A stretch of DNA of 64,000 nt from Bdellovibrionota bacterium. GTDB lineage: Bacteria > Bdellovibrionota > Bdellovibrionia > Bdellovibrionales > JAMPXM01. Where the stretch lies: positions 1 through 64,000 of the forward strand of contig CAUJGS010000033.1 in NCBI GenBank assembly GCA_963170185.1, written 5' to 3'. The translations under genes and the position numbers were made by a program. This document shows, in pieces, positions 9,128-13,373 of this stretch (its first letter is position 1; every line of letters starts with the position of its first letter). A model generated the notes under the pieces. It did not search any database and had not been told where the DNA came from. It was given only the letters and a program-made list of their open reading frames with translations.

Positions 9128-9865
9128 ATGCGTATCGCACTTATTATGATGATCGGTATTCTGACAGGTTCTTTCGCTTCGGGGGAGCAGGCGGCAACAG
9201 GCCTCCAGGTTCAAAGCACTGCAAAAATCTACGATTTGAAAGATCGGTCGAAACACCTCTACAACTTCAAAAACGAGATCGAAATCTCTGGCGACACAAA
9301 GAAGATGGTTGCCACTTACACGGATCTCGACGGCAAGCTTTTGGTACATGAGACGACGGTTTTAAAGCAGGTCGACGGCAAAGAAAGCTTGGTCTCTTAC
9401 GATCTGGATCACAAACAAATGGGAGCCACGGGAAAGATCGAAGTTCGTGATGGCAAAGCGCATTTTACCTACACCAAAGATGGCGAAACGAAGACGGCTA
9501 GCGAGAAAGTCGGCGATGATTTCGTCATTTCGACGATGATCGTGGGTTTTCTTGGTCGCAATTGGGAGAAAATCAAAAAGGGCGAAACTCTTAAAGTGCG
9601 ACTCGGTGTTGTTGATCGCCGAGAAACTGTGGGATTTAGCTACAAGAAAGAGTCCGAGTCCGCAGATGGTGTGAAAGTCAAAATGCGCCCTTCGAGCATG
9701 ATTATCGCCGCGATCGTGAATCCACTGATTTGGACTATGGAGCCAAACGGCGGCTTCTTAAAAGAGCTCGAGGGACGTTCGCCTGTGAAAACAGCCGAGG
9801 GTGACAAGTTCAAAGATTTCGACGGTTACACCGTTTACACTCAAGGCGCGCTAAAGGCGCAGTGA
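9128..9865 (+). CDS. Exported protein of unknown function
   Basis: A 245-residue protein with a signal peptide ([19 protein letters not shown], likely cleaved near SGEQA). The mature part alternates charged and hydrophobic residues, as in all-beta periplasmic proteins, and has no cysteine. A GGAGGA ribosome site at 9118-9123 selects the ATG at 9128 over the earlier one at 9095. Its 3' end overlaps the convergent pterin-synthase gene by 25 bp. No family is recognised. Confidence 0.75.
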
Positions 9866-10572
9866 TGCTCGAGATCGCAAAGCAAGACCGAAGTTCCTAG
9901 CTGCTTTGCGAGCTTCATGGCCAAACTAGGAAGTGTTTCCGCAAGTTTGGCACTTTCTTCGACGAGAGATCTGATTTGAGGATCGCTTTGCAGAGGCTCA
10001 CCGTGTGTAGCCTCTTTTTTTTCGCCAAGTTGAATCTTCAAAGAGAGCGGTCGGCCTTTTGTGCCCAGGCGTACGCCTTGTGCGATTTTATTCTGTTTAA
10101 CATAAGACTTCTTCTCCAAGCCGAGCTGAGCTGACGCCTGTGTCGGATTTATTCCAAAACTTGAGGCAAGATCCGGCATCTCCCACACTAAAACTCCGGA
10201 TGGCGAGGCTTGGGAGTTCGCTTTTGGCCACGCGTTTTGGAGTTCCGACCAGATTTGAAGCGCGAGATTTTCTGTCGTCGAGATTTTCTGTCCGATTTGA
10301 AAAACGGGATGAGTGTAGGAAAGGTGTTTGTGGTCGTAGAGGTCACATATGGCGTCCATTGTTTGCTCGGCCGTGGTCTTAAACTCTTGAAAAAGAGCCG
10401 GCGTCATTTCGGCAATTTGCCAAGAGAAATCGATTTCGTAATTGTGGCCATGGCCATATTCGGAATAACACTTTCCAAACTGCGCTTGGTTTTTCCCCGT
10501 CGTCCACTTTGGTTGGTTGTAGAGATGCGCGGTTGAAACAAGTCTTCGAAATGAGACCAAGCACTTGTTCAT
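9841..10572 (-). CDS. 6-pyruvoyl-tetrahydropterin synthase/QueD family protein with a C-terminal extension
   Basis: A 243-residue member of the PTPS/QueD superfamily. Zinc ligands are His16 (STAHLY), His41 and His43 (GHGHNY). The catalytic Cys35 lies in FGKCYSEYGHGHNY, DHKHL follows at 80-84 and TTENLA at 99-104. The GKC-x4-GHGHNY layout is closer to animal-type pyruvoyl-tetrahydropterin synthase than to the CxxxHGH of QueD. The core ends near 135; about 108 more residues follow with no known domain, while family members are usually 120-150 long. Its ATGA start overlaps the stop of the upstream SDR gene. A tetrahydropterin role is suggested, but queuosine-type synthesis is not excluded. Confidence 0.82.
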   Translation of the reverse strand: MNKCLVSFRRLVSTAHLYNQPKWTTGKNQAQFGKCYSEYGHGHNYEIDFSWQIAEMTPALFQEFKTTAEQTMDAICDLYDHKHLSYTHPVFQIGQKISTTENLALQIWSELQNAWPKANSQASPSGVLVWEMPDLASSFGINPTQASAQLGLEKKSYVKQNKIAQGVRLGTKGRPLSLKIQLGEKKEATHGEPLQSDPQIRSLVEESAKLAETLPSLAMKLAKQLGTSVLLCDLEHHCAFSAP

Positions 10573-11372
10573 ACCAGTGAGATTCCGCCATCGACTGGAA
10601 TCAGAGTGCCGGTGATCCATTCGGATCCTGGGCCGGCAAGGTGCCATACCATGCTGGCCACTTCGTGTGGCTGTCCGATACGACCCAGCGGCTGCATGGG
10701 AGCCAGTACTTTGAGGGTGTCTTCTTTATTGGAGGCTGTGTGAAATCCATGAATCGGCGTATCGATGATTCCGGGGCAAACCGCATTGGCTCGCACTCCG
10801 TCGATGGCGCTTTCCAGTGCAAATGTTTGAACCCAGTTATTGAGCGCGGCTTTGGAGGCCGCGTACGCGCCGGTCTCTTTGACCGGGCGTAAGCCCAGCG
10901 TGGAGCTTACTGCGATCATTGAACCGCGGTTTTGTTTGAGACATGGGTAAAGGACTTGAGTCAGTCGAATCACCGCGAAGAGATTGATCTCAAAGATGCG
11001 ATGCCATGAAGTGTCGGTGGACTGTAGGGACGAAGCGCGCTCGTAAATCCCGGCATTGTGAATCAGGCATTGGATTCGGTTGGAAACGTTTTCGTTCGCT
11101 TTCAACCAGCGACTAAGAGTCGAAACCGAGTCGGGGTCGGCGATATCGAGAGAAAGCGTCGTGAGAGCGTCACTGGGTTTACCGGTTTGCGCAGATAGGC
11201 GTTTGGCTGTTTCAGTCAGAGCCTCTTGTCGGCGACCTACCAGTACGAGATCCCAACCTTCTTTGGCAAAGCGCTCGGCGATCGCAGCGCCGATACCGGA
11301 GCCAGCTCCCGTGACAAATGCCACGGGAGTTGATTTGTCGTTTCCCGCAGGATTCGACTTAAAGACCGACAT
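10569..11372 (-). CDS. Short-chain dehydrogenase/reductase (possible pterin reductase)
   Basis: A 267-residue NAD(P)-binding Rossmann enzyme. TGAGSGIG binds the nucleotide, HNAG is the central strand motif, and Ser (AVSSTLG) with YAASK form the catalytic set. The end VDGGISLV is typical of classical SDRs. It lies between the histone gene (TAATG, 1-nt overlap) and the PTPS-like gene (ATGA, 4-nt overlap). In tetrahydrobiopterin synthesis a sepiapterin-reductase SDR acts directly after PTPS, so the coupling hints at that role; by sequence alone it could be any SDR. Confidence 0.85.
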   Translation of the reverse strand: MSVFKSNPAGNDKSTPVAFVTGAGSGIGAAIAERFAKEGWDLVLVGRRQEALTETAKRLSAQTGKPSDALTTLSLDIADPDSVSTLSRWLKANENVSNRIQCLIHNAGIYERASSLQSTDTSWHRIFEINLFAVIRLTQVLYPCLKQNRGSMIAVSSTLGLRPVKETGAYAASKAALNNWVQTFALESAIDGVRANAVCPGIIDTPIHGFHTASNKEDTLKVLAPMQPLGRIGQPHEVASMVWHLAGPGSEWITGTLIPVDGGISLV

Positions 11373-11581
11373 TAGAAGTCGTATCCACGAACAGTTTTGC
11401 GTCCGTTGTCTTTGCAGCGACCGACAGCTTCGCCAATCATCGCGTGAACTTTTGCGCTGAGTGCGTCGACAACATCGCTAGAGACGTTGCAGCCGTGCTT
11501 GCGGATAGCGTCTTTCATTTTGCTTGCGATGATGAGGACTTCGCCTTTTGACGCTTTTTTGCCTTTGCTCTTTTTTGCCAT
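11372..11581 (-). CDS. Small bacterial histone-fold DNA-binding protein
   Basis: A 69-residue basic protein with a single histone fold. After a lysine-rich tail (MAKKSKGKKASKG) come helix 1 (EVLIIASKMKDAIRKHG), the long helix 2 (SSDVVDALSAKVHAMIGEAVGRCK) and the loop RKTVRGYDF, which matches the RKT[VI]xxxD motif of archaeal histones. Helix 3 is almost absent because the chain ends at Phe69. Bd0055 of Bdellovibrio bacteriovorus is a known DNA-binding histone of this size. An AGGAGGGG ribosome site sits before the ATG. It is the first gene of an operon with the SDR and PTPS-like genes. Two cysteines (31 and 56) are unusual for a histone. Confidence 0.85.
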   Translation of the reverse strand: MAKKSKGKKASKGEVLIIASKMKDAIRKHGCNVSSDVVDALSAKVHAMIGEAVGRCKDNGRKTVRGYDF

Positions 11582-11634
11582 GTTCCCCTCCTAGGGTCGT
11601 TGTATGGGACATCGTTTTAAATAAACGAGATCCC

Positions 11635-11664
11635 ATTCTCAGAAGGGGGTCGTACCTAAGTCAA
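11635..11664 (-). promoter_or_regulatory. Possible sigma-70 promoter of the histone operon
   Basis: On the minus strand TTGACT (11664-11659) and GAGAAT (11640-11635) are separated by 18 bp, upstream of the histone gene. The -35 is near consensus, the -10 is weak. This 100-bp gap is the only non-coding space before the operon, and the upstream HD-GYP gene ends at 11682, so an independent promoter here is likely. Confidence 0.4.
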
Positions 11665-11681: not shown

Positions 11682-13373
11682 TTAGGCGGCTTTTTGCGGA
11701 CGCATGCCGAGCGCCGAGCGCCAAACTTCTGCTTCGACGAAGATTTTAAGCAGATCGAGATCCAATTTTCCGCTGCGCCCTTCCATAAATAAGATGTCGA
11801 TGGCGCGTTCGGGTTGGACAGCCGGCTTATACGGACGATCCATCGAAGTCAGGGCGTCGTAGATATCAGCGATCGTCATGAGTTTTGATTGAAGCGGGAT
11901 ATGCTCGGTCACAAGACCGCGTGGGTACCCCGACCCATCCATCTTCTCATGGTGCGAGTAGGCGATGTCCGGAACGCTTCCCAAGTCCTCGGTCCATGCG
12001 ATCTGACGAAGGAAATGGTAGGTGTGTGTGACGTGGCTTTCGATTTCTTTTCGTTCCGCGTCGGTGAGAGTCCCTTTGGGAAGCGAAAGTTTGACGATTT
12101 CGTCGGGGGTCAAAATAGCCTGCTCGATTTCTTGCGATGTGCGATTGATCCAGGTCATGAGGCTGATGATATCAAAGTCACCGGCGATAACCTGCGGCTG
12201 ATTCGCTTTCACGATGGAGAGACGGACTTGTTGAAGCTGTTTAGCGAAATCATCGATCTTATTGGCGACTTTGAGCGCGTACTCTTTGGGGGATTCCACC
12301 TTGATGCCGCGATCGATCAATCCGAGGAGTTCCTCGGCGGAGTTTTTCCAAACGGTCATTTCTTGCTTGGCGCGCACGGTCTCAAGGCGGTTGAGAATGG
12401 TCTCCATCTCGTGTGGATAGAGTTTCAGCTGTTTTGAAAGAACCGATTCACGCACGCCGATTTTCCCGAAGTCGTGAAGCAGAGAGGCGTAGCGGAGTTC
12501 ACGAATCTGAGCGTCGGTGAAAAAGACATTTTTAAAAGAACCCGATTCCGTTTGGTGGACGGCACGAGCGAATTCAACAGTGAAGACGGCAACGCGGTCG
12601 CTATGACCACTTGTCGAAGGATCTCGCGATTCAATCGCCGTAACAGAGGCACGGATGAAGCTTTCGAAAAGATTTTCGATATCTTCGGTCAGTTTGGCGT
12701 TCTCAATCGCCACCGAGGCCTGAGAGGCGAAAGCCGCCATAAGTTCTTCGTCGTCCTCAGTGAACGCCATCACGTCGGACTTTTCGATCACTTTGTTTTT
12801 ATCAAGCTGGCCAGGGCTTCCCGGTTGCAGCTTGTTGATGATCTGTAGAACGCCGCGAACTTTTTCGTTGGAACTCGTCATTGGAACGGCAAGCATGGAA
12901 ACCGTGTTGTAGCCGGTTTCGATATCGACTTCCTGATTAAACTTCAGTTCGGAATCCGGTGACAGTGCATAACAATCGTCGATGCGAACAGCTTTCCCTT
13001 CGAGCGCGACCCAACCGGCGATGGAGGACTTTTCGAGTTCGAGAATTTTGTTCTGGTACGTTCGGCCTGATCGACGATTCGTTGAGCGATGAAAGCGAAG
13101 CACTGGAATGTACTTGGCTTGCGTGTTTGCCACGGAATCGATCTTGATATTCTCGGTCAGGAAGATGCTTGCCGCGTCGGCGCCAGTCGCATCGAGTGCA
13201 CGGTCGATAATGATGTCGAGAATGCGGCTGATATCTTTCTCGCGGGTGAGAGAAATCCCAGTGTCTATCAAAGAACGATAACGATTGAGGCGATCGCTTT
13301 CGGAAACCGAAAGTCGCTGCTCGTTATTGGCTTTAGATCCAATCTTTTGATTGGCCTGAGGTTTTCGACTCAT
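11682..13373 (-). CDS. GAF domain HD-GYP phosphodiesterase
   Basis: A 563-residue signalling protein, predicted to break down cyclic di-GMP. A GAF domain spans about 35-230 (ADAASIFL, SSIAGWVALEG, SMLAVPM, GVLQIINK). The HD-GYP domain follows: HSDR at 257-260, the metal pair His300-Asp301 in LLHDFGKIGV, HHE at 474-476 and DGSGYP at 479-484, then ADIYDALTS. All signature residues are present. About 115 extra residues, mostly helical, lie between the HD and GYP parts (about 315-430); normal spacing is much shorter. No membrane segment is seen. It is a single gene whose own promoter should lie in the 89-bp gap upstream. Confidence 0.88.
   Translation of the reverse strand: MSRKPQANQKIGSKANNEQRLSVSESDRLNRYRSLIDTGISLTREKDISRILDIIIDRALDATGADAASIFLTENIKIDSVANTQAKYIPVLRFHRSTNRRSGRTYQNKILELEKSSIAGWVALEGKAVRIDDCYALSPDSELKFNQEVDIETGYNTVSMLAVPMTSSNEKVRGVLQIINKLQPGSPGQLDKNKVIEKSDVMAFTEDDEELMAAFASQASVAIENAKLTEDIENLFESFIRASVTAIESRDPSTSGHSDRVAVFTVEFARAVHQTESGSFKNVFFTDAQIRELRYASLLHDFGKIGVRESVLSKQLKLYPHEMETILNRLETVRAKQEMTVWKNSAEELLGLIDRGIKVESPKEYALKVANKIDDFAKQLQQVRLSIVKANQPQVIAGDFDIISLMTWINRTSQEIEQAILTPDEIVKLSLPKGTLTDAERKEIESHVTHTYHFLRQIAWTEDLGSVPDIAYSHHEKMDGSGYPRGLVTEHIPLQSKLMTIADIYDALTSMDRPYKPAVQPERAIDILFMEGRSGKLDLDLLKIFVEAEVWRSALGMRPQKAA

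Follow-up and report, generated by a model that had tools for sequence, protein, structure and literature searches.

The open reading frame at positions 11372–11581 of the window, as we call the whole stretch of 64,000 nucleotides analysed here, raises the question of whether a bacterium of the order Bdellovibrionales encodes a genuine histone at this site, to which histone class the protein belongs and how closely its gene is tied to its neighbours. An earlier note on this DNA had described it as a single-fold bacterial histone that heads an operon, with Bd0055 as the known example.

Identification of a bacterial histone gene

The earlier note gave coordinates for the reading frame without a strand. 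A plus-strand reading of 11372–11581 is interrupted by a stop, and the frame was accordingly placed on the minus strand, with the following features.

11372..11581, minus strand: FtF-type α3 bacterial histone, 69 amino acids (translation, PDB matches, model, fold search, profiles, orthologues)
Parts of the histone: N-terminal tail, residues 1–13; helix 1, about 19–27; helix 2, 37–58; short helix 3, 66–68
11587..11592, minus strand: strong AGGAGG ribosome-binding site, 5 bases 5′ of the histone ATG (sequence)

The translated protein of 69 residues (MAKKSKGKKASKGEVLIIASKMKDAIRKHGCNVSSDVVDALSAKVHAMIGEAVGRCKDNGRKTVRGYDF) begins with a basic, lysine-rich tail of 13 residues carrying a net charge of +6, past which the histone fold part reads EVLIIASKMKDAIRKHGCNVSSDVVDALSAKVHAMIGEAVGRCKDNGRKTVRGYDF. 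Both the lysine-rich tail and the RKTVxxxD motif reported earlier are present, the latter as RKTVRGYD.

Searches of the PDB with phmmer gave significant E-values for histones only. With the single sequence, the best match was HLp of Leptospira perolatii (9qt0; 3.3e-9), followed by HBb/Bd0055 (8cmp and 8fvx; 1.3e-5 and 1.6e-5) and archaeal HTkC (9f2c; 8e-4). When a 66-member profile was used, HLp and HBb were matched at 4e-21 and 4e-13, with archaeal histones and NF-YB ranking after. An AlphaFold2 monomer prediction, run on an alignment of the 66 relatives, produced a three-helix histone fold with helices at residues 19–27, 37–58 and 66–68 (pLDDT 83 overall, about 90–95 across the fold). Foldseek placed this model closest to HLp 9qt0 (0.7 Å rmsd over 56 columns, TM 0.96 by target length), with HBb at 0.9–1.0 Å and HTkC at 1.0 Å next. 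A structure prediction and a histone-HMM search had been proposed as checks in the earlier note; the former gave the expected three-helix fold, about 1 Å from HBb/Bd0055, and the latter found similarity to histone profiles, as detailed below. Together with orthologues in related genomes, the PDB matches and the predicted fold bear out a bacterial histone with a single fold, and it is confirmed that 11372–11581 on the minus strand encodes a genuine one.

Searching Pfam, NCBIfam and PADLOC with the histone returned no family call above cut-off, the best Pfam score being 16.2 bits for PF00808 against a curated cut-off of 21.4. Surveys based on curated Pfam/NCBIfam cut-offs would thus undercount bacterial histones, because such cut-offs miss this protein. 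As a separate observation, Pfam histone models at an E-value of 0.01 matched few of its 66 relatives.

Assignment to a histone class

The α3 histones comprise FtF, bacterial dimer, ZZ, phage and Rab GTPase classes (PMC11390915, PMC12701072). In FtF histones two dimers are joined face to face through an Arg and an Asn located where helix 2 ends and in loop 2 (PMC11390915, PMC12701072), whereas bacterial dimer histones lack this pair (PMC11390915). The tetramer-interface residues are R48 and N52 in HMM, and R49 and N53 plus R55 in HLp; R49 and N53 of HLp act together with S52, R55, T61 and F63 (PMC12701072).

In the alignment, HLp residues R49, N53, R55, D62 and F63 (PMC12701072) correspond to R55, N59, R61, D68 and F69 of the histone, D68 being the RD clamp residue. 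The DNA contacts S14, K15, K17, K21 and T57 of HLp correspond to S20, K21, K23, R27 and T63, all of which are highly conserved among the 66 relatives. Contacts that differ from HLp are D58 (S52 in HLp), Y67 (T61), V33 (T27) and K62 (T56). R55 is conserved in 65 and N59 in all 66 of the relatives. The relatives' loci were found by the pattern RKTVRx[YH]DF, which biases how conserved the final residues look in the wider alignment; R55 and N59 both lie outside the pattern, and their conservation was therefore not imposed by the search. The protein further shows the RxTxxxxD motif, as R61-K-T63-V-R-G-Y-D68, the α1 lysines K21 and K23, and the interface Arg/Asn with a third Arg (R55, N59 and R61); the model has a single histone fold with a short helix 2 and a truncated helix 3 of 3–4 residues.

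For comparison of the two nearest classes, an FtF profile was built from FtF histones outside the histone's own family. The histone scored 93 bits with this profile versus 43 bits with the HBb profile, and controls separated correctly (HLp, 75 versus 30 bits; the HBb-type protein of the same genome, 52 versus 142 bits). In a tree, the histone belonged to a family clade of 8 members (99/95) that lay far from two HBb-type rows. We therefore assign the gene, with high confidence, to the FtF α3 histone family as encoding a chromatin-type DNA-binding protein. The new sequence adds to a family that is already known, the class itself having been described previously.

These results bear on the comparison with Bd0055, which named the wrong class. 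A Bd0055/HBb-type bacterial dimer that bends DNA as a dimer would share the α3 superfamily and the RKTV motif region with this protein, and the HBb matches in the PDB (1.3e-5) and in the fold search (0.9–1.0 Å) are consistent with such an identity. That identity is nevertheless very unlikely: the HBb profile scores 50 bits below the FtF profile, R55 and N59 are both present when bacterial dimers have neither (PMC11390915), and the protein does not cluster with HBb sequences, whose rows are separate in the tree. The genome encodes its Bd0055/HBb-type histone in a different gene, L002.

Other kinds of histone were also considered and set aside. A ZZ histone was rejected, as nothing but a basic tail of 13 residues precedes the fold in the 69-residue protein, which has no N-terminal ZZ zinc finger. 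The DUF1931 pseudodimer consists of two fused folds without DNA-binding residues; here there is a single fold and the DNA-contact residues are retained. A phage-borne histone is unlikely, since phage records were searched with zero matches.

Gene neighbourhood, C-terminus and cysteines

The features that surround the histone gene are as follows.

9841..10572, minus strand: 6-pyruvoyl-tetrahydropterin-synthase-like (PTPS-like) gene (PF01242, 3.7e-12; PDB 1b66, 2.3e-12)
10569..11372, minus strand: classical SDR oxidoreductase, 267 amino acids (PF13561, 1.3e-53; PF00106, 2.3e-48; solved relatives)
11606..11634, minus strand: inverted repeat GGGATCTCGTTT...AAAACGATGTCCC, directly after the −10 (z −2.79; low confidence)
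11635..11664, minus strand: promoter-like pair TTGACT-N18-GAGAAT, located between the HD-GYP and histone genes
11682..13373, minus strand: GAF and HD-GYP-like protein (HD_5, 1.7e-31; GAF, 1.8e-14)

The reported TAATG overlap, in which the SDR start overlaps the histone stop, is present in the sequence, and the start of the PTPS-like gene overlaps the SDR stop in turn (ATGA). Among seven family genomes compared, the SDR gene lies downstream of the histone in five and the PTPS-like gene in six; the GAF/HD-GYP gene, co-directional with the histone and 100 bp away, lies upstream in six. The order SBP5, GAF/HD-GYP, histone, SDR, PTPS-like, convergent gene and RluB-like is kept in most of the family, and the same neighbours were sought beside FtF histones of other lineages and not found. 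The promoter-like pair in the window, as one site, is not significant by itself; in each of the seven family genomes compared, a pair of the type TTGAC[A/T]-N17/18-[T/C][G/C]AAAT precedes the histone, the pair in the window being a variant. The inverted repeat, possibly an operator-like site or a 5′/leader hairpin, has a comparable counterpart in the sister L033 and is absent or weak in other family members. With respect to the neighbours themselves, the PTPS-like protein carries a C-terminal extension of roughly 100 residues, and the SDR and PTPS-like pair (9841–11372, minus strand) could be a pterin reductase/synthase unit.

Among family genomes in which the junction was read, TAATG occurs in the window and in L032 only; L033, of the same genus, has a gap. 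Hairpins of varying quality lie 3′ of the histone in L034 to L038, and the one in L035, which has a U run, is clearly a terminator. TAATG coupling was consequently rejected as a conserved feature, as it is not shared throughout the genus and hairpins follow the histone in other genera. Given the promoter-like motif, TAATG and ATGA, the proposal that the histone heads an operon is plausible in this species and in its sister species. A histone–SDR–PTPS operon is likely in the window's species; the tight coupling looks recent and does not speak for a shared function.

The conserved neighbourhood and promoter-like motif, together with an inverted repeat close to the start site, would also suit a histone fold that has been retired from chromatin and serves as a local regulator, either of the SDR–PTPS genes or, through the leader inverted repeat, of its own promoter. 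The genome has other DNA organisers, and presence across the order is patchy (about 21 of 141 genomes), which fit the same idea. We consider it unlikely, because the main non-specific DNA-contact positions are retained, HLp DNA binding is non-specific (PMC12701072) and the inverted repeat is not shared throughout the family. A chromatin-type role for the FtF histone is preferred.

That the chain stops directly after the RKTV loop, as had been pointed out, is true, yet this is expected of α3 histones, which are defined by a third helix of 3–4 residues, and HLp also ends in DF. The chain ends in YDF or HDF within the histone's family and in TDF in HLp, and most relatives outside the family carry 2–5 extra C-terminal residues. 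In FtF histones the interface Arg touches the residue that follows the Asp in the dimer facing it; by this analogy the C-terminal end probably contributes to the tetramer contact.

The two cysteines mentioned in the earlier note are indeed present (C31 and C56) and differ in how widely they are shared: position 31 is Cys in 41 of the 66 relatives, while at position 56 there are 9 with Cys and 55 with Ala. Two conserved cysteines also occur in HBb-type proteins. Since C31 is common in the family and C56 rarer, a redox switch through this pair is speculation. In its fullest form, a C31–C56 disulfide driven together with the downstream oxidoreductase would alter DNA binding; both cysteines are retained in the five nearest sequences and an SDR gene does lie downstream. 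An intrachain disulfide is unlikely, however, as C31 belongs to loop 1 and C56 falls late in helix 2, which has 22 residues, so that the two lie towards opposite ends of that helix. C31 also occurs where residue 56 is Ala, SDRs are NAD(P)H enzymes and not thiol systems, and some family genomes have no SDR, which together make a redox-switched histone very improbable.

Distribution, proposed mode of action and comparison with named histones

Orthologues were found in seven other genomes of the family, with core identities of 57–95%. In the nearest genomes (G003, G004, G012 and G007) core identity is 82–95% and dN/dS is 0.02–0.17, values that are approximate given silent sites near saturation. 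On these sequence comparisons, the histone is under strong purifying selection in its nearest relatives. In more distant family members, the FtF gene shows 57–64% identity versus 84–86% for the HBb-type gene, and so diverges faster. Of the 141 genomes that represent the order, about 21 gave FtF-strength profile matches (E-value below 1e-17), among them 8 of the 13 from the window's family; the same profile search of the order's genomes gave none in family f9. The nearest named relative is L046, Bdellovibrionales bacterium Ga0074137, of the class Bdellovibrionia. Phyla are not monophyletic in the FtF tree, Bdellovibrionota requiring 9 label changes, and with few columns and metagenome bins claims of transfer from it are unsafe. 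Separately, single open reading frames in a Euryarchaeota bin (L102:2998-3369) and a Myxococcales bin (L107:3010-3393) each contain two tandem FtF-like folds and are FtF-type histone doublets.

The window's assembly (3.54 Mb, 136 contigs, 95.7% complete) contains a second histone, the HBb-type gene L002 (G000:C69) downstream of tatC-like genes, as well as four HU/IHF-family genes; a ZZ histone was looked for in this genome and none was found. FtF and HBb-type histones occur together in the family genomes G003, G004, G011 and G012. All three of FtF, HBb-type and ZZ were found in one genome in four cases, three within the family and one in another.

Three-class genomes G005, G006, G007 (family) and G029 (another family): loci L167, L168, L169 and L177 with L170, L171, L172 and L178

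By analogy with HLp, two copies of the histone would form a histone-fold dimer, and two dimers would join at both ends to make a torus, by way of R55 and N59 where helix 2 ends, R61 in loop 2 and F69 at the C terminus. DNA would be wound round the outside and held by K21, K23 and R27 (helix 1), loop 1, and K62/T63 (loop 2), with non-specific affinity increased by the basic N-terminal tail. From HLp we infer the tetramer, wrapping of about 60 bp and a nucleoid role. The histone would act alongside HU/IHF and the genome's other histone, the dimeric, DNA-bending one of HBb type, and the link to the downstream SDR and PTPS-like genes is probably one of transcriptional read-through and not of shared function. 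Codon usage of the histone is only mildly ribosomal-like, ranking in roughly the top 11% when compared with background windows of equal length.

Bdellovibrionota FtF histones were previously reported from the class Bacteriovoracia (PMC11390915); the present one belongs to the class Bdellovibrionia, in an order including Bdellovibrionales-named relatives, and has an HBb-type histone alongside. Several histone classes within a single bacterial genome are of more interest than the class itself. It is conceivable, though we hold the idea tentatively and think it rather doubtful, that some Bdellovibrionales lineages run a tailed, tetrameric, wrapping FtF histone and a dimeric, bending HBb-type histone, with or without a ZZ histone, beside HU/IHF, dividing the work or forming mixed complexes across life phases. 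If the HLp analogy holds, DNA-wrapping and DNA-bending histones would occur in one bacterium, and a division of labour would be directly testable.

Among named histones, the closest counterpart is HLp, the FtF histone of L. perolatii, which wraps about 60 bp of DNA as a tetramer (9QT0/9QT1/9QT2; Hu et al. 2025, PMC12701072) and is the only bacterial FtF histone with a structure. The modelled fold lies 0.7 Å from HLp, and the two proteins share truncated helices 2 and 3, the DF chain end, a basic N-terminal tail, the R/N/R tetramer residues, the RD clamp residues and the α1 DNA-contact Lys/Arg. Identity is 45%, and C31 and C56 take the place of Phe and Thr in HLp. The gene neighbours differ (HD-GYP, SDR and PTPS versus SMC and MAP for HLp), and whereas this genome adds an HBb-type histone and HU/IHF, L. 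perolatii is reported to be without another histone or canonical NAP (PMC12701072). HBb/Bd0055 of B. bacteriovorus (8CMP, 8FVX, 9EZZ) has in common the α3 superfamily, the RKTV loop and a fold match of about 1 Å, but lacks the FtF Arg and Asn and bends DNA as a dimer (PMC10627809, PMC11317129); the HBb-type proteins found here have no basic tail and extend beyond the loop (...ARDIVIDHL). HTkC of Thermococcus kodakarensis (9F2C; PMC11390915) is likewise of the FtF class, with a fold match of 1.0 Å, but is archaeal and 30% identical to the histone; a basic tail is generally absent from archaeal FtF histones (PMC11390915). ZZ histones of the Bd3044 type (PMC11390915) share the α3 histone domain and differ in their N-terminal zinc-finger domain, which the histone does not have.
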